A stretch of 54,810 nt of DNA. It comes from Draconibacterium sp. (GTDB lineage Bacteria > Bacteroidota > Bacteroidia > Bacteroidales > Prolixibacteraceae). Location of the stretch: assembly GCA_011620585.1 (NCBI GenBank), contig WOYV01000015.1, positions 1 through 54,810 of the forward strand. The letters run 5' to 3'. A program made the translations under genes and the position numbers. Shown here one piece after another: positions 34,002 through 46,234 of the stretch. The notes under the pieces were generated by a model. It was not told where the DNA came from, searched no databases, and was given only the letters and a program-made list of their open reading frames with translations. Every line of letters begins with the position of its first letter. The stretch's first letter is position 1.

Positions 34002-34191
34002 TGCACACTAAAATCAATTCATTAAACTTACAAAAACATTAGCAGCTTTAAAAAGATGTTCGTTTATCGGTATTATAAAGTCATGGAATTTGTAAATTAA
34101 GCCATCACGTGTGTTTCTTTTACAATTGATTTCATATTTTTGCCGACCTGTGAGGCCATTTATTGAACGATTATCAAAACGACAGGAAGGA

Positions 34192-35691
34192 TTGAAATCT
34201 AAACTCAAATATCTCTGTTTATTCTTGTTTTTACCTTTGTTGGTTAGCCCGCAAACCGATACTGTCTCGCAATCCACGCTTGATTTTTTTATTTCGGACC
34301 TCAACCAGGGTCAAGGGGGCCTGAAATATGACGGAAACGGAAGAATCCTGACCGACGTGGATCAAACCCAGGATTTGACTTTTTCTAAAAAGTTGGAAAA
34401 CAAGTACTTGCATTTATTTCCGGAAGAGCTGCCGGAATCTTCATCATATTATCTTTTTTTAAATGGTTTAAACAAAGAGCAAAAGTCAAACCTGGTTAAG
34501 AATTTTTATACCAGTGAGGCATTTATCGATTCAAGCCTGGTTCGTGCCGAACTTCCGTCCGAAATCAAATTTCTTCCAGCTGCATTGTCGGCCATGAATC
34601 AAAGGGCAATTGGCGAAGATAAGCGGGCGGGGATTTGGCAGTTGACACACTTTCAGGCTTTTTTTAACGGATTGCAGCTTACTCGTTTGGTGGATGAACG
34701 ATTTGATAATGGGCCTTCAACGCGGGCGGCAGTGGCCGAGTTGAAGAAGATGAAAGAAAATTTTGGCTCTGATGAATTGGCTGTACTGGCTTTTCTGTGC
34801 GGTCCTACCAGTGTTAGAAATGCTTCGCAAGCTGCGGATGAAACACCCGCTCCCGGCGAGATTCTCAGCCGGCTTCCTGCGAAGGTTTCTGAAAAGATGG
34901 CGCTGTGGCAGGCCATGGCCGTTTTTCTTCCAGAAAACAAATGGGAACGCGAGCTGACGATTCCCGCAACCGACACTGTGATCATCACAGACAAAGTACA
35001 TTTTCAGCAAATTTCCACAAGCTTAAATATTCCTGTTAAACTCTTGCAAAACTACAATCCTCAATATCCCTATTTGATTGTTCCGGGCGACGAGAAACCA
35101 CAAAATTTGTATCTTCCGAATGGGAAAAAAGAAGAGTTTAATCTGCTGAAAGATTCGGTTTCCCGGTTATTCAACCCCACTCTTTTTGATGTGGTGGCGC
35201 AAAAAATAGAATACGCCCCGGCTCCTAACAGGCAATATTTGGGTGAAAAGGTTAAAGACCTGGAAATTGAAGGAAAGACCAAGATAAAATACACGATTCA
35301 ATCGGGCGATGTGCTGGGTTTTATTGCCGAAGACTACGATGTGCGTGTGGAAGACCTGAAATACTGGAACAATATATACAACGAACGCAAAATACAGGCC
35401 GGACAAAAACTGGATATTTTTGTGGATGATGCCGACGCGGATTATTACAGGAACTTGCATCCGGAGCCGCTAACCAAAACCGGAGCGAAAAATCCGGCTG
35501 CTGCAAAATCTTACCCAATACCGGAAAATGCGCGAAAAATTGAACATGAAGTAAAAAGTGGCGAATCGCCGTATGTGATCGCACAAAAATACAAAGGTGT
35601 TTCGCCCGATGCCATCCTTTACTGGAACGGCATTTCGGATGCACGCAAAATACAGATCGGACAAAAACTAACGATATACGTAACCGAATGA
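34192..35691 (+). CDS. LysM protein with inactive transglycosylase-like domain
   Basis: First gene of a four-gene O-acylation operon. TTG at 34192 is preferred: AGGAAGG lies just upstream and the product (499 residues) opens with a signal peptide ending near LLVSPQ. Residues about 60-240 follow the MltD/SLT pattern (LPSEIKFLPAAL, AGIWQLTHFQAF, VDERFDNGPSTRAAVAELKKM, FLCGPTSVRNA), but the catalytic Glu position is Leu132. Two LysM domains follow (about 365-410 and 450-499). It probably binds peptidoglycan without cutting it. The next gene overlaps by 4 bp, so the protein is tied to acyl transfer. Confidence 0.85.
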   Translation: MKSKLKYLCLFLFLPLLVSPQTDTVSQSTLDFFISDLNQGQGGLKYDGNGRILTDVDQTQDLTFSKKLENKYLHLFPEELPESSSYYLFLNGLNKEQKSNLVKNFYTSEAFIDSSLVRAELPSEIKFLPAALSAMNQRAIGEDKRAGIWQLTHFQAFFNGLQLTRLVDERFDNGPSTRAAVAELKKMKENFGSDELAVLAFLCGPTSVRNASQAADETPAPGEILSRLPAKVSEKMALWQAMAVFLPENKWERELTIPATDTVIITDKVHFQQISTSLNIPVKLLQNYNPQYPYLIVPGDEKPQNLYLPNGKKEEFNLLKDSVSRLFNPTLFDVVAQKIEYAPAPNRQYLGEKVKDLEIEGKTKIKYTIQSGDVLGFIAEDYDVRVEDLKYWNNIYNERKIQAGQKLDIFVDDADADYYRNLHPEPLTKTGAKNPAAAKSYPIPENARKIEHEVKSGESPYVIAQKYKGVSPDAILYWNGISDARKIQIGQKLTIYVTE

Positions 35692-37154
35692 AGCCTATAC
35701 AAACTTTGCTATTTACACTGGGTATTTTCTTGCTGCTGGCAGGCGTTATGTGGATCACTCCCGATGATGGCGTAAAGGCTGGTTCATTCACTTTTCATAT
35801 GCCTACCCTGAAGGAGATGCTCGTAAAAAACGAGGTGGAGTATGCCGATCTGAGCAACCTTATCAACCGGCAATTCGAAATTGATTCGCTGGTGGATTTT
35901 GAACTCGAAACCATTGCCGGCGATACCGTGATGGAAGTAGTTCACAGGGCCGATTACGACTCGCTGGTGCAGTCGATCAATAAACTCGAAATGGAAGAGG
36001 CTGGACGCCAGAACCTGGAACGGTTCTTTTACCATCTTCAGCACGATTCGCTTACCCGGATTATGCATTACGGCGATAGCCAGATCGAAGGCGACCGGAT
36101 TACTTCCTTTGTTCGGAATAAATTGCAGGTGCGTTTCGGGGGGACAGGGGTTGGTCTTCGCCCTGCTCTTCAGGCTTACGATTATGTATTTAGCGCCCGA
36201 CAGGAAAACATTGGTGACTGGACCCGTTACCCGATTTACGGCAAGGTGGATTCTACCATCACGCACGACCGGTACGGTATAATGGGAGCTTTTTCGCGTT
36301 ATGCTCCTCCGGTGCCAGATACCGTTCCATTTCGCGATTCTATTCTTTACACCGCAGAGATGAACGTATCGCAAACCGATATTTCTTTCCTTCGTGCGCG
36401 CGAATATGACCACCTCCGCCTTTTTTATGGAAATTCGAGAAGACCGGTGCAGACTGTTGTTATTGCTCGCGGCGATACTGTTTTAACCGACACTTTGAAA
36501 GCTAAACTCGATTACGGAACAATAGAATGTGCATTGCCCGATTCGACCAACAGTGTAACATTGCGTTTCTCGGGTTACGACAGCCCCGATATTTATGGTA
36601 TTGAATTGGCATCACAAAAGGGCATTATTATGGACAACATCGCTTTGCGCGGAAGTTCGGGAACCATTTTTACCAAAGCCAGTTACGAACACAGTCTGAA
36701 AATGTACCGCGACCTAAAACCTTCGCTTTTCATTCTTCAGTTTGGCGGCAACGTGATGCCATATATTCAGGACAATGCGGCGATAAAACGTTATGGCCGC
36801 TGGTTTGGAAGCCAGATTCAGCGTATTCAGCAATTGTGCCCCGATGCCGCGATCGTGGTGGTCGGCCCCAGCGATATGTCGACAAAAGTGAAAGATAAAT
36901 TTATGACCTACGATCATTTGCCCGATGTAGTGAAAACCCTGAAAAATATCTCGCTCGAAAATGGTTGTGTATACTGGGATATGTACAAAGCAATGGGAGG
37001 CTACAACAGCATGCCCTCGTGGGTGAATGCAAATCCCGAACTGGCCCGGCCCGATTATGTGCATTTTTCGGCGAAGGGAGCCCGATTGATTGCTAACATG
37101 TTTTACAATGCCCTGATCTACGAATACAACAATTTTTTGGAGGAGGAGAAATGA
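35688..37154 (+). CDS. Membrane-anchored SGNH-fold protein, putative acyltransferase/esterase 1
   Basis: 488 residues with an N-terminal signal anchor (about 7-25) and a periplasmic body. The SGNH blocks are HYGDSQIEGDR (block I, catalytic Ser), LQFGGN (block III region) and DYVHFSAKG (block V, Asp-x-x-His). A beta-rich domain (about 170-310) is inserted between blocks I and III. In AlgJ/AlgX and PatB such proteins take acyl groups delivered by an MBOAT partner and place them on a glycan, so a similar role is inferred. It overlaps both neighbours by 4 bp (ATGA). Related in sequence to the next gene. Confidence 0.85.
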   Translation: MKPIQTLLFTLGIFLLLAGVMWITPDDGVKAGSFTFHMPTLKEMLVKNEVEYADLSNLINRQFEIDSLVDFELETIAGDTVMEVVHRADYDSLVQSINKLEMEEAGRQNLERFFYHLQHDSLTRIMHYGDSQIEGDRITSFVRNKLQVRFGGTGVGLRPALQAYDYVFSARQENIGDWTRYPIYGKVDSTITHDRYGIMGAFSRYAPPVPDTVPFRDSILYTAEMNVSQTDISFLRAREYDHLRLFYGNSRRPVQTVVIARGDTVLTDTLKAKLDYGTIECALPDSTNSVTLRFSGYDSPDIYGIELASQKGIIMDNIALRGSSGTIFTKASYEHSLKMYRDLKPSLFILQFGGNVMPYIQDNAAIKRYGRWFGSQIQRIQQLCPDAAIVVVGPSDMSTKVKDKFMTYDHLPDVVKTLKNISLENGCVYWDMYKAMGGYNSMPSWVNANPELARPDYVHFSAKGARLIANMFYNALIYEYNNFLEEEK

Positions 37155-38548
37155 GAAAAGTAACCCGGTATTTAGTGATCAGCGGACAGGATCAAGCGCC
37201 AATAAATAGAATAGCCAACTTGTTTTCAGGGTTGGCACTTCTCATATTAATTTTTGTTCGTATTGGGGCACAAGCCCAGGAAGAAGCTTATTTGTACCAA
37301 CTGAATCCCTACAATTTTATACGTTACGATCTGAATACCATGCATTATCCCGGTAACAGGGAAGCTTTCGACCGATTGGATGACAAACTCGAAAAACTCA
37401 TGGCCACCGGCGAAGGCAGGATTAATATCGTGCACATTGGCGGGTCACACATACAAGCCGGAACGTACACCGGGCAGATGCGAACCCGCTTTCAGCAACT
37501 CAACGGAGGGATGAACGCAGGCTGGGGCTATATGTTCCCGTACAGAATCTCGCGTACCAATTCGCCTTTTGGCTATTATATTCGCTACAATGGTAGTTGG
37601 CATAGCTTCCGGAATGTGGAAAGCAGGAAAAGCGGCACACTCGGAGTGGGAGGGATTGCAGTTACTACTTCGTCGCCCCGGGCAGAACTAACTATACTCT
37701 TGGAAAAAGAGAGCACACTGGATTATTCCTTTAACAAATTCAGGATTTATTTCGAAAACAAACAAAAAAATTACGAGGTTGAAATTGATCCGAATCTTAT
37801 AAAAAACATCAGTAAAACAGACGGTTACATCGATTTTAGCTTGAATAAGCAAGTTGACAGTTTACAAATTAATTTGGTGAAAAACCCGGGGAAGGAAGGG
37901 AGTTTTACCTTGTTTGGGATTACAACGGAGAGTGCGCCAAACGGTATCATGTACCACGCAATCGGGGTGAACGGGGCACACTTGCCTGCATTTTTAAGGT
38001 GCCAGCTTTTTACCGAACAGTTGGCTGAACTGAACCCCGGCCTCGTAATTCTGGGCATCGGTATCAACGATGCTTATGGCAGGCGTTTTTCGCAGGATCG
38101 TTTTGAAGATAACTACGACCAACTTGTTGCAGAAATCAGACAGGCAGCACCCGGCGCTGCAATTATTTTTACAACCAATAACGATAGCTACCTGTATCGG
38201 CGATATGTCAATAAAAACGCTGAAGAAGTACGCGAAAGCATGTTCCGAATGGCCGCGAAATACAATGCCGGGGTTTGGGATATGTTTGAAGTGATGGGAG
38301 GGTTGAATTCGATTACGCTGTGGCAGAAAAACGGATTGGCACAAAGCGACAAGATACATTTTTCCCGCGAAGGTTATTTAATGATTGCCGACCTTTTCTT
38401 CACAGCATTTATGAAGGATTTCGAAAAATATTACATTGATAAAACAAAGCTGATAGAGAATCTTTCGATCTCTGAAAACAATACTAACGGGGAGGAAGCG
38501 GCGCCTAAAACTAATTTTTCAGTGACGCATTTTTTGGAGGAGAGATAA
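37151..38548 (+). CDS. SGNH-fold protein, putative acyltransferase/esterase 2
   Basis: 465 residues. A signal sequence lies unusually far in (hydrophobic about 25-40, ending near GAQAQ). Block I is HIGGSHIQAG: the usual GDS is GGS, but the catalytic Ser stays. Block III is GIGIND and block V DKIHFSREG. It is a paralogue of the preceding gene: WDMYKAMGGYNS there matches WDMFEVMGGLNS here, and both insert a beta domain between blocks I and III. One copy may transfer and the other remove acyl groups, as PatB and Ape1 do, but that is inference. Translationally coupled by a 4-bp overlap. Confidence 0.85.
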   Translation: MRKVTRYLVISGQDQAPINRIANLFSGLALLILIFVRIGAQAQEEAYLYQLNPYNFIRYDLNTMHYPGNREAFDRLDDKLEKLMATGEGRINIVHIGGSHIQAGTYTGQMRTRFQQLNGGMNAGWGYMFPYRISRTNSPFGYYIRYNGSWHSFRNVESRKSGTLGVGGIAVTTSSPRAELTILLEKESTLDYSFNKFRIYFENKQKNYEVEIDPNLIKNISKTDGYIDFSLNKQVDSLQINLVKNPGKEGSFTLFGITTESAPNGIMYHAIGVNGAHLPAFLRCQLFTEQLAELNPGLVILGIGINDAYGRRFSQDRFEDNYDQLVAEIRQAAPGAAIIFTTNNDSYLYRRYVNKNAEEVRESMFRMAAKYNAGVWDMFEVMGGLNSITLWQKNGLAQSDKIHFSREGYLMIADLFFTAFMKDFEKYYIDKTKLIENLSISENNTNGEEAAPKTNFSVTHFLEER

Positions 38549-38563
38549 ACTAAAACAAACGAA

Positions 38564-40252
38564 TTGGAACTGTTACAACAAATAGATTTATCGGAATGGT
38601 TACGGAATATTTTTCTGTACGATAAAAACGCGCCGCTAATTTTTACCCGTTTCTTTTTCTGGGCATTTTTTGCTGTGGCGCTGGCAGGATATTCGCTCGT
38701 TTATAAAAATAAGAACCGAAGTATTAGGGCCGGTTACCTGTTTGTGGCCAGCTTGTTCTTCTACTATAAATCGAGTGGGTTCTTCTTTTTTATTTTGTTG
38801 TTTAGTACGCTCACCGATTTCTTTATTGGGAAATACATTTACCGCTCGAAAAACGAGTTGACCAGAAAATTTTTGATCGCACTTAGTGTGGTGGTGAACC
38901 TCATGTTGCTGGCTTATTTCAAGTATGCCTACTTTTTTATCGACAGTATCAACCTAATGCTTGGTACCGATTGGCAGGTGGTCAATCATCTAGCTTTATG
39001 GGCGAATGAAGCTACGGGGACACATTTTAACGTGAACCAGATTTTGCTCCCTGTGGGTATTTCCTTCTTCACTTTTCAAACCATCAGCTATTCGGTTGAT
39101 GTTTACCGGGGCGAAACGAAACCCGTGAATAACCTGGTCGATTTTGGATTTTATGTTTCGTTTTTTCCGCAGTTGGTGGCAGGCCCCATCGTTCGTGCTT
39201 CTGGTTTTGTAAAGCAGATTTACGAGGATTATCATCTTACGCGCGCCGAATTTGGCTGGGCCATTTTTATGATCCTCAAAGGCCTGATCAAGAAGATTTT
39301 TATCGGCGATTACATTGCGGTAAATTTTGTCGACCGGGTGTTTTCTGATCCGGTTACGCATTCGGGCTTCGAAAACCTGATGGCTTTGTTTGGTTATTCG
39401 CTTCAGGTTTATGTCGATTTCTCAGGGTATACCGACATTGCGATAGGTGTGGCGCTGCTGATGGGGTATCGTTTGCCCCAAAACTTTAATTCGCCTTACA
39501 AAGCCAAAAATGTGGGCGATTTCTGGAAACGCTGGCATATGTCGCTATCGTCGTGGTTAAAGGATTATCTGTACATTCCGATTGGTGGAAACCGCAATGG
39601 CTCGGTATTTTCTTATGTTAGTTTGGGCATTATTCTGGCCATCATTGTGTTGCTGGCCGGCAAGTTAATACTGGTCCCGGTACTGGCGGGCGCCGTGCTG
39701 ATATTTGCAGCGCTCGCTTATTTTATCCCTTCGTTAAAACAAAAGATCGATACCAACCTCAACCTCATGTTGACCATGTTGCTGGGAGGACTTTGGCACG
39801 GTGCTTCGTGGCAGTTCATTATTTGGGGCGGCCTGAACGGTGTTGGGTTGGTAATCTATAAATTATGGCGAAAAATCAGTCCCTGGGAAAAATACGATAA
39901 CTGGTTGGTGAACATTTGGAAGATCGCTTTAACGTTTACTTTTATAACGTTCACCCGTGTATTTTTCCGTTCCGAATCGATGACAGTTGTAAAAGGAATG
40001 CTGCATCAAATCACAAGCGATCTTAAGCTTTCAATTATCCCCGAAGTTTTGCTGGCTTACAAATGGGTTTTCGTGGTAATGTTTTTCGGGTTTTTTATTC
40101 ATTGGCTGAGTTCGAAGTGGAAGGAACGCATCGAAAAATGGTTTGTGGAAGCTCCCTTTTGGGTACAGGCTGTTCTGGCTGCTGTTACTGTGATTGTTGT
40201 ATATCAGTCGATTTCTTCAGACATGCAGCCATTTATTTATTTCCAGTTTTAA
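38564..40252 (+). CDS. MBOAT-family membrane O-acyltransferase (AlgI/PatA-like, TTG start)
   Basis: 562 residues, polytopic. Carries acyl groups from the cytoplasm across the inner membrane for O-acylation of an external glycan. Family marks: LLPVGISFFTFQTISYSVDVYRG, FFPQLVAGPIVR, FWKRWHMSLSSWLKDYLYIPIGG, and the catalytic His in LGGLWHGASWQFIIWGG. The TTG start at 38564 follows an in-frame stop by 18 bp and no ATG is available; the N-terminus from there aligns with the family's usual opening. Last gene of the operon. Its TAA abuts the stop of the opposite-strand outer-membrane gene. Confidence 0.93.
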   Translation: MELLQQIDLSEWLRNIFLYDKNAPLIFTRFFFWAFFAVALAGYSLVYKNKNRSIRAGYLFVASLFFYYKSSGFFFFILLFSTLTDFFIGKYIYRSKNELTRKFLIALSVVVNLMLLAYFKYAYFFIDSINLMLGTDWQVVNHLALWANEATGTHFNVNQILLPVGISFFTFQTISYSVDVYRGETKPVNNLVDFGFYVSFFPQLVAGPIVRASGFVKQIYEDYHLTRAEFGWAIFMILKGLIKKIFIGDYIAVNFVDRVFSDPVTHSGFENLMALFGYSLQVYVDFSGYTDIAIGVALLMGYRLPQNFNSPYKAKNVGDFWKRWHMSLSSWLKDYLYIPIGGNRNGSVFSYVSLGIILAIIVLLAGKLILVPVLAGAVLIFAALAYFIPSLKQKIDTNLNLMLTMLLGGLWHGASWQFIIWGGLNGVGLVIYKLWRKISPWEKYDNWLVNIWKIALTFTFITFTRVFFRSESMTVVKGMLHQITSDLKLSIIPEVLLAYKWVFVVMFFGFFIHWLSSKWKERIEKWFVEAPFWVQAVLAAVTVIVVYQSISSDMQPFIYFQF

Positions 40253-45307: not shown

Positions 45308-46234
45308 ATGCGAGTGGAGATGGAAAATAAGAAAGCCTGGAAATTTTTTGTGTCGCTGTTGCTAACGGCGAATGTGATTTTGATACTGATGCTGCTGGGC
45401 TCGGCCCGGCCCGATGATTCAAATAAATTGGAAAAGACCGAAGTGTGGTACGAATCGGTGTATATGCCCAAAAAGGTAAGCTTTGCAGGCGAACCTATGC
45501 CGCTACATTTGTATTACGTAAAGGAAGCGCTTGAACGCGAACTGCTTTCGAATGCTTATTTTCATTCGCAAACCATCCGTTTTATAAAAATGGCCCCCCG
45601 GTTTTTCCCGGTTATAGAACCCATTTTGAAAGAACACGGAATCCCCGACGATTTTAAGTACCTGGCACTTGCCGAAAGTAATTTCGACCCGCGGGCTGTT
45701 TCTCCTGCGCGGGCAGTAGGTTTGTGGCAATTAATGCAGGGCACCGCTAAAGATTATGGCCTTGAAATCAACGACGAGGTGGACGAACGCTACCACATCG
45801 AAAAAGCCACCGACGTAGCCTGCAAATATATCAGGGATGCACATGGGAAATTCGGGAACTGGACCATGGTAGCCGCTGCCTACAACCGTGGCATGGCCGG
45901 TGTGCAGCGCGAAATCGACCGCCAGCAGGAAGAAAATTACTACGATTTGCTGATCACCACCGAAACCGCACGTTATGTGTACCGGATTGTGGCTTTGAAA
46001 CTGATTTTGGAGAACCCCGGGAAATACCATTTTTCCATTCCTGAAGATGAGAAGTATCCCGTGGTTCCAACAAAAGAAGTAGAGATTACCGGCTCGGTAG
46101 ATAACTTTGCCAAATACGCCGAAGAACACGGCCTGAGCTACAAACTCTTCAAGGATTTTAATCCCTGGTTACGCGAAAATTCCCTGACTTATTCAGGAAA
46201 GAAAAGATATTGGGTGAAAATCCCGCAGATATAG
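45308..46234 (+). CDS. Membrane-bound lytic transglycosylase, MltD/SLT type
   Basis: Cleaves peptidoglycan glycan strands, forming 1,6-anhydro ends. 308 residues; an N-terminal hydrophobic anchor (about 13-31) and an SLT domain (about 100-240). The catalytic Glu123 is in LALAESNFDPRA, with AVGLWQLMQGTAKDYGL, VDERYHIEKATDVACKYI and VAAAYNRGMAGVQ. A C-terminal segment (about 250-308) resembles a degenerate LysM-like region. ATG at 45308 or 45320 may be the start. It is the active counterpart to the dead domain encoded at 34.2 kb. Confidence 0.92.
   Translation: MRVEMENKKAWKFFVSLLLTANVILILMLLGSARPDDSNKLEKTEVWYESVYMPKKVSFAGEPMPLHLYYVKEALERELLSNAYFHSQTIRFIKMAPRFFPVIEPILKEHGIPDDFKYLALAESNFDPRAVSPARAVGLWQLMQGTAKDYGLEINDEVDERYHIEKATDVACKYIRDAHGKFGNWTMVAAAYNRGMAGVQREIDRQQEENYYDLLITTETARYVYRIVALKLILENPGKYHFSIPEDEKYPVVPTKEVEITGSVDNFAKYAEEHGLSYKLFKDFNPWLRENSLTYSGKKRYWVKIPQI

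Follow-up and report, generated by a model that had tools for sequence, protein, structure and literature searches.

Organization of the locus

The DNA analysed here, called the window throughout, is a stretch of 54,810 nucleotides from Draconibacterium sp. (assembly GCA_011620585.1, contig WOYV01000015.1, positions 1 to 54,810 of the forward strand). It carries a candidate O-acetylpeptidoglycan (OAP) operon, the first gene of which encodes a LysM protein with a lytic transglycosylase domain that is apparently inactive; the origin and role of this protein are the subject of the analysis. Open reading frame (ORF) calls placed four genes in the same direction on the + strand between 34192 and 40252: the LysM gene, two SGNH genes (SGNH1 and SGNH2) and an MBOAT gene. 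The starts of SGNH1 and SGNH2 each overlap the preceding gene by 4 bp (ATGA), and the MBOAT gene starts 15 bp past SGNH2. Both the coordinates and the translational coupling agreed with a preliminary description of this DNA, in which a four-gene operon had been proposed.

The LysM gene (34192–35691) encodes 499 amino acids with an N-terminal signal-like segment, and was classified as an MltD-type pseudo-lytic transglycosylase from its Pfam matches, the MltD model and its recurrence upstream of SGNH1 in other genomes. Its start is a TTG codon at 34192; an alternative GTG start at 34111 is possible. Pfam identified an SLT domain (2.2e-10; residues 120–217, 34549–34842) and LysM in two stretches (3.3e-25), the best of which gave the first repeat (residues 367–409, 35290–35418), while the second repeat (residues ~454–495, 35551–35676) corresponds to the other stretch with its position taken from alignments. 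Similarity to MltD extended over most of the length of the protein, and the MltD model gave 95.6 bits, under its equivalog cut-off of 508.

Absence of the catalytic glutamate

The position of the SLT domain at which a Glu, which we take to be the catalytic residue of the family, is expected was occupied by Leu132 (codon 34585–34587), as placed by a phmmer alignment to the SLT/LysM structure 8rhe and by alignments to homologues. Therefore, the SLT domain is predicted from its sequence to be dead, in keeping with the preliminary description. By descent the protein is an MltD, having the combined SLT and LysM architecture; as an active enzyme it is not, having Leu in place of the Glu. Among 66 OAP-linked copies that were scored, the Glu was absent in 43 (the window included, and one being a duplicate, since L036 and L127 are identical in sequence) and present in 23. 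Leu was the replacement in 28 of these 43, and the rest had Cys, Ile, Val, Phe, Ser, Arg, Gln or Met.

Away from the operon the Glu was retained. It was kept by all 28 distinct non-operon SLT copies scored; they came from the 17 genomes, the window's among them, in which an operon-linked copy was present. These were made up of one set of 16 copies and one of 12, the latter consisting of the 11 SLT-bearing proteins among 12 further matches, all with Glu, plus L194 from the window's own genome, again with Glu; the SLT paralogue of the window, which is L190, was entered once. The three copies found 2–5 kb from SGNH1 all retained Glu, and each of the 13 genomes tested among those with a dead operon copy (the window's own and 12 others) had a second, Glu-bearing MltD elsewhere. 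A further 13 genomes whose operon lacks a LysM gene yielded 23 scored copies with an SLT domain. Of these, 21 had the Glu; the two dead off-operon copies (L264 in G138 and L265 in G061) resemble relocated operon copies. The window itself encodes a second SLT protein at 45308–46234, which is without LysM and keeps its catalytic Glu.

The distribution of dead and intact copies was compared with two phylogenies. On a tree of the LysM/SLT proteins, estimated by a quick method with the Glu column excluded and showing several long branches, one state change separated dead from intact copies. On a tree of SGNH1 and MBOAT (110 loci, 59 with a scored LysM gene) two changes sufficed; when the labels were shuffled 1000 times the mean was 17.5 changes and the minimum 12, so that none of the 1000 replicates was as low as two. 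The state change was read as a loss because non-operon copies have the intact MltD state. Read most simply, the trees suggest a single loss of the catalytic Glu, in one large Bacteroidota group. If loss is the correct direction, an MltD would have been recruited beside the operon, would have become inactive at an early point in that group, and would later have been dropped in several branches.

Recurrence of the LysM gene beside the operon

Conservation of gene order, which the preliminary description had proposed as a check, was surveyed in two samples. The class sample consisted of 149 genomes searched with SGNH1, which was present in 79 (E up to 1e-3); 76 loci were taken from 75 of the 78 matching genomes other than the window's own, G104 contributing two while G043, G082 and G116 were left out. 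The named set was drawn from 584 relatives, the best 80 by similarity to SGNH1, which gave 79 distinct loci; it is biased toward the kin of the window. SGNH2 was present in 74 of the 149 class genomes (E up to 1e-45) and MBOAT in 120 (E up to 1e-40, a threshold that also admits other MBOATs). At least two SGNH genes accompanied an MBOAT gene in 54 of the 76 class loci; some of the remaining loci were cut by contig ends, some were fused and some had the genes elsewhere.

A LysM/SLT gene lay directly upstream of SGNH1 in 16 of the 76 class loci, representing 11 families when the window's own is counted, and in 48 of the 79 named loci. L154 is a further named locus with the gene, missed by the automated count owing to an extended SGNH1 ORF. 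With the core counts above, these numbers indicate an arrangement that is more than chance. However, no LysM gene was found upstream in 60 of the 76 class loci, of which at least two (L047 and L073) were cut by a contig end and two others belonged to genomes holding a dead copy elsewhere, nor in 26 of the 79 named loci, where four more were cut and three of the 26 had an intact copy 2–5 kb off. The condition that the preliminary description set for refutation, a LysM gene that is not conserved beside the other three, thus applies in part; in a broad group the gene is a conserved member of the operon.

Carriers of the dead copy include Draconibacterium, Maribellus, Phaeocystidibacter luteus, and metagenome-assembled genomes of Flavobacteriales and Cyclobacteriaceae. 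SGNH2 was present in 28 of the 29 named loci with a dead copy, the exception (L165) ending inside SGNH1. Dead copies were also coupled more tightly to the operon than intact ones: the 4 bp overlap with SGNH1 was found for dead copies in 16 of 29 named loci, and for intact copies in one of 19. Intact MltD genes occur upstream in other lineages, a few of them at about 100–350 bp.

Selective constraint on the dead copy

Evidence for purifying selection on the LysM gene came from one close pair of loci, L111 and L112, which is the sole pair with a synonymous divergence below 1 for this gene. The ratio of non-synonymous to synonymous divergence (dN/dS) was 0.096 overall and 0.13 in the 125 codons that surround the dead site. 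Where a ratio could be estimated for other pairs it was 0.11–0.22, at dS values above 1.4; the remaining pairs were saturated.

Conservation was compared by column between the 43 dead rows and 43 Glu rows, the latter including the duplication of L190 and the SLT paralogue of the window. Among dead rows, Gly147, Trp149, Asp168, Arg170 and Asn289 were kept at 98–100%, and the LysM repeats were well conserved. Gln150, Tyr201 and Asn202, which we take to be cleft residues and which vary little or not at all among the Glu rows, fell to 40–47% or switched residue in the dead rows. By these columns, the SLT fold and the wall-binding repeats look constrained and the catalytic cleft does not.

The SGNH and MBOAT proteins

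SGNH1 (35688–37154, + strand) encodes 488 amino acids with an N-terminal hydrophobic helix that is predicted to resemble an uncleaved anchor, and SGNH2 (37151–38548, + strand) encodes 465 amino acids; the Pfam GDSL domain was matched by both (5.3e-8 and 1.8e-16 respectively). In profile searches both matched structure 4k3u first, followed by 8gld and 8gkd, all three being named peptidoglycan O-acetylesterases in the structure library; 8gkd and 8gld are annotated as Ape1 of Campylobacter jejuni, and 4k3u is presumably the Neisseria meningitidis protein. AlphaFold models (mean predicted local distance difference test score 88.7 for SGNH1 and 90.0 for SGNH2) were compared with known structures by Foldseek, and the five best matches of each were peptidoglycan O-acetylesterases. 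The SGNH2 model matched 4k3u with E = 1.8e-25 and a template modelling (TM) score to target of 0.86, while the SGNH1 model matched 8gld with E = 5.3e-22 and TM = 0.78, and 4k3u with TM = 0.81.

Profile alignments placed the catalytic set at Ser131 (36078–36080), Asp456 and His459 in SGNH1, with Gly322 in block II and Asn355 in block III, and at Ser99, Asp400, His403, Gly275 and Asn306 respectively in SGNH2. The Ser, Asp, His and block III Asn were conserved in 50/50 rows of SGNH1 and 44/44 of SGNH2, and the block II Gly in 50/50 and 43/44. The signature motifs given for Ape proteins, I GDS(H/F) and VII Dx(V/T)H (PMC1199599), were only partly matched in letters, SGNH1 having GDSQ and DYVH and SGNH2 having GGSH and DKIH, with Ser, Asp and His kept. 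On the predicted models, both proteins have the Ape1 fold with an SGNH catalytic set, a statement that applies equally to an esterase and to a transferase.

The MBOAT gene (38564–40252, + strand, TTG start) encodes 562 amino acids and matched the Pfam MBOAT domain at 6.9e-22. The protein is PatA-like, having that domain, the conserved His412 (codon 39797–39799) and a C-terminal FIYFQF (40232–40249), which corresponds to the FXYXXF acyl-shuttle motif; the Tyr of this motif is acetylated in PatA (PMC12148441). The FXYXXF terminus was found in 106 of 121 complete MBOATs. Of the remaining 15, 12 have (M/L)P(I/V)YLQF instead, with the Tyr kept, and three are the split frames L083 and L133, plus L106. 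A Pfam search of the window's own assembly (3.9 Mb, 99.7% complete) returned this frame, in two pieces, as the only MBOAT match.

Two other kinds of acylation system were rejected. The MBOAT protein scored 158.1 bits on the DltB model against an equivalog cut-off of 375, which disfavours a Dlt system. An alginate or exopolysaccharide acetylation system was set aside because Pfam scans of 24 other ORFs of the window, which include DnaJ, EPSP synthase, UvrD, EF-G, SHMT, UvrA, peptidases and a GH5 enzyme, showed no locus for polysaccharide synthesis or export, or of glycosyltransferases.

Fusions and neighbouring genes

Rearranged loci bear on the division of labour between the SGNH proteins. Five SGNH2-like proteins (L230, L231, L232, L233 and L234) have one or two C-terminal LysM domains by Pfam; they come from four genomes (G048, G039, G113 and, with two, G079), in which the SGNH1 locus is without a LysM gene. 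SGNH2 and MBOAT form one frame of 933–968 amino acids in L055, L056, L057 and L058, all of one family (Pfam was run on L057 and L058), and in L228 and L229 SGNH2 adjoins MBOAT while SGNH1 sits elsewhere. Conversely, SGNH1 and MBOAT were found with no SGNH2 by profile search in three genomes of unstated completeness (L135, Mariniphaga sediminis; L168; L172). The last arrangement favours SGNH1 as the transferase, whereas the SGNH2-MBOAT fusions and the arrangement of L228 and L229 favour SGNH2 in that role, or a relay between the two. A further argument for SGNH1 took its RGSSG motif to stand in for the block II Gly, as in PatB; it was abandoned because profile alignments place the invariant Gly322 on the block II Gly of Ape1. 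On balance, the assignment of transfer to SGNH1 and removal of acetyl to SGNH2 is favoured over the reverse by a narrow lean.

Genes for cell wall enzymes adjoin SGNH1 in several loci that have no LysM gene. A RodA-type gene (FTSW_RODA_SPOVE) lies upstream of SGNH1, at 6 bp in L090 and L094 and at 282 bp in L083, and small glucosaminidase genes (PF01832) overlap or abut SGNH1 in L096, L098 and L100, placing a second kind of wall hydrolase at the operon. Elsewhere, in L105, L106 and L107, a third gene lies between the MBOAT gene and an SGNH2-like gene, and Pfam assigns it to DHHW in L105 and L107; these loci are possibly a related but different acylation cassette. In L059, L061 and L063, SGNH1 follows 9–23 bp after a small, conserved-looking ORF of 136–149 amino acids, with no adjacent SGNH2 or MBOAT in the stretch.

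Interpretation and alternative explanations

The operon very probably acetylates the cell wall; the acyl group would be acetyl, and the acceptor in this organism would be peptidoglycan. Peptidoglycan had been one of the targets suggested by the preliminary description, and the Ape1 folds of both SGNH proteins, the OAP gene order and the lack of a polysaccharide locus among the scanned ORFs all point to it. The reading we prefer, with a probability of roughly 0.6, is that this is a Bacteroidota OAP operon with an added docking subunit, a former MltD that is now a non-cutting wall tether for the acetylation enzymes. By analogy with PatA, PatB and Ape1, the MBOAT protein would take acetyl from acetyl-CoA onto the Tyr in the FIYFQF at its C-terminus; one of the periplasmic Ape1-fold SGNH proteins would then move the acetyl to O-6 of N-acetylmuramic acid in peptidoglycan, and the other would remove it. 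With its two LysM repeats and SLT fold, the LysM protein would serve as a peptidoglycan tether or adaptor that does not cut and through which the acetylation enzymes, with SGNH2 as the likeliest partner, would be held on the wall.

In Neisseria meningitidis, Ape1 is bound in a complex and stimulated by the lytic transglycosylase LtgA (PMC7083599). This precedent, the fusions, the co-occurrence with SGNH2 and the wall-gene neighbours support a wall-docking adaptor acting with SGNH2, and a physical complex of the two proteins may be supposed. A more specific proposal is that one loss of Glu beside the OAP operon founded a lineage of pseudo-lytic transglycosylases, kept in Marinilabiliales, Flavobacteriales, Cytophagales and other Bacteroidota, in which the fold became a glycan-holding adaptor that presents or positions peptidoglycan for both O-acetylation and de-O-acetylation; this is tentative, and we would put it at somewhat short of even odds.

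Several observations weigh against the tether and its history. The 60 class loci without a LysM gene mean that it is not essential to the machine, and both samples were drawn by SGNH1 similarity. The trees are midpoint-rooted and their change counts do not separate loss from gain; the long branches of the LysM tree may exaggerate the case for a single change, L129 supplies the second change as an exception on the SGNH1 and MBOAT tree, and the dead rows L040, L042, L160–L162 and L165 are very divergent, making their Glu column less certain. The LysM gene evolves the fastest of the four genes in L111/L112, and decay of the cleft beyond the Glu makes binding of glycan by the cleft doubtful. Turning to the enzymes, no DUF459 (PatB) protein scored over the cut-off in the genome, SGNH2 reaching 20.4 bits against 27.2, and neither SGNH1 nor SGNH2 shows the PatB hallmark, replacement of the block II Gly by Ser or Asn (PMC12148441), so that sequence singles out neither as the transferase. 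Finally, cells in which ltgA was deleted had normal morphology and Ape1 function, and an ltgA E481A mutant had no shape defect (PMC7083599).

Of the alternatives, one concerns the route of the acetyl group and would have membrane-anchored SGNH1 pass it from MBOAT to SGNH2, a LysM-held final transferase, leaving the operon without a dedicated esterase. Such a route would resemble that of AlgJ and AlgX. The SGNH2-MBOAT fusions, the persistence of SGNH2 beside MBOAT when SGNH1 is elsewhere (L228 and L229), the SGNH2-LysM fusions and the anchor-like helix of SGNH1 are consistent with such a relay, but SGNH2 is slightly the closer match to a true esterase, and in the three genomes with SGNH1 and MBOAT no SGNH2 was found; we consider the relay rather improbable.

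It is also unlikely, in our estimate, that this is an ordinary OAP cluster beside a decaying MltD gene that is inactive and has no part in acetylation. Such a neighbour would fit the intact MltD genes upstream in other lineages, the many class loci with no LysM gene, the lost cleft residues and the fast evolution of the gene. It fits poorly with a dN/dS of about 0.1 in the closest pair, an open frame kept in 43 loci from several orders, the tighter coupling of dead copies to SGNH1, the well-conserved LysM repeats, the dead copies held elsewhere by two genomes with a LysM-less operon, and the SGNH2-LysM fusions.

Less probable still is acylation of some other glycan, wall-bound or periplasmic, such as a capsule, an exopolysaccharide or a secondary polymer, with the LysM protein anchoring the polymer or the enzymes. 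Pairs of MBOAT and SGNH proteins are believed to act also on alginate, on cellulose and on secondary wall polysaccharides (PMC12148441), and the MBOAT protein does score on the DltB model (158 bits, below the cut-off); however, both SGNH proteins match the peptidoglycan esterase Ape1 best, no glycosyltransferase or polymer export locus occurs among the 28 window ORFs scanned, and some other loci have RodA or glucosaminidase neighbours. A chance neighbourhood of the LysM gene was rejected as the principal explanation on its conservation, coupling, trees and dN/dS.

O-acetylation blocks lytic transglycosylases, and to our knowledge there is no account of how cells direct O-acetylation to particular sites in the wall. 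A dead transglycosylase in the operon of the modifying enzymes, together with LysM-SGNH fusions elsewhere, provides a concrete candidate for a targeting subunit; if the pseudo-transglycosylase lineage proposed above is real, two known antagonists, the O-acetylation machinery and the lytic transglycosylases, would have merged both physically and evolutionarily. The locus also raises the question of which Ape1-fold protein took the role of PatB where PatB is lacking, which bears on how easily an esterase becomes a transferase.

Comparison with known systems

The LysM protein resembles MltD in having an SLT domain followed by LysM repeats and in being similar over most of its length, but it has Leu for Glu, has lost other cleft residues and is encoded in an OAP operon, with an intact MltD elsewhere in the genome. 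The AlgI/AlgJ/AlgX system of alginate acetylation likewise has one MBOAT and two SGNH-type proteins; here, however, the SGNH proteins are Ape1-like and no alginate locus was present among the ORFs scanned. The ltgA gene presumably lies outside the OAP operon. The LtgA-Ape1 complex (PMC7083599) also pairs a protein of lytic transglycosylase fold with one of Ape1 fold, but LtgA is active and is a different protein, whereas the partner proposed here is dead, LysM-bearing and operon-encoded. With PatA/PatB/Ape1 of Neisseria and Campylobacter (PMC12148441, PMC6174289), the operon shares the MBOAT His, the C-terminal FXYXXF and Ape1-fold proteins; it differs in having two of the latter, no PatB over the cut-off and an additional LysM pseudo-transglycosylase.

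The closest resemblance was to the OAP clusters ape1b-ape1c-pat described from sequences that include Bacteroides and Porphyromonas (Weadge 2005, PMC1199599). SGNH1-SGNH2-MBOAT has the same order, all on one strand, with Ape1-type SGNH proteins and a Bacteroidota host; this core is a familiar one, in print since 2005. O-acetylated peptidoglycan amounts to 69.4% in B. fragilis and 27.0% in B. thetaiotaomicron, both of which have the printed cluster (PMC1199599). Both of these, however, have a cation-efflux transporter upstream (PMC1199599). The leading dead MltD/LysM gene goes unmentioned in PMC1199599, where, as in the 2018 review PMC6174289, the term LysM is absent; searches of the open-access PMC literature brought up nothing on an OAP cluster with a dead transglycosylase or a LysM gene, which is weak evidence of absence. 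The acetylation machine is thus of a kind already known, and the dead protein beside its genes suggests a new helper subunit, a conserved pseudoenzyme that is new as far as these literature searches go.

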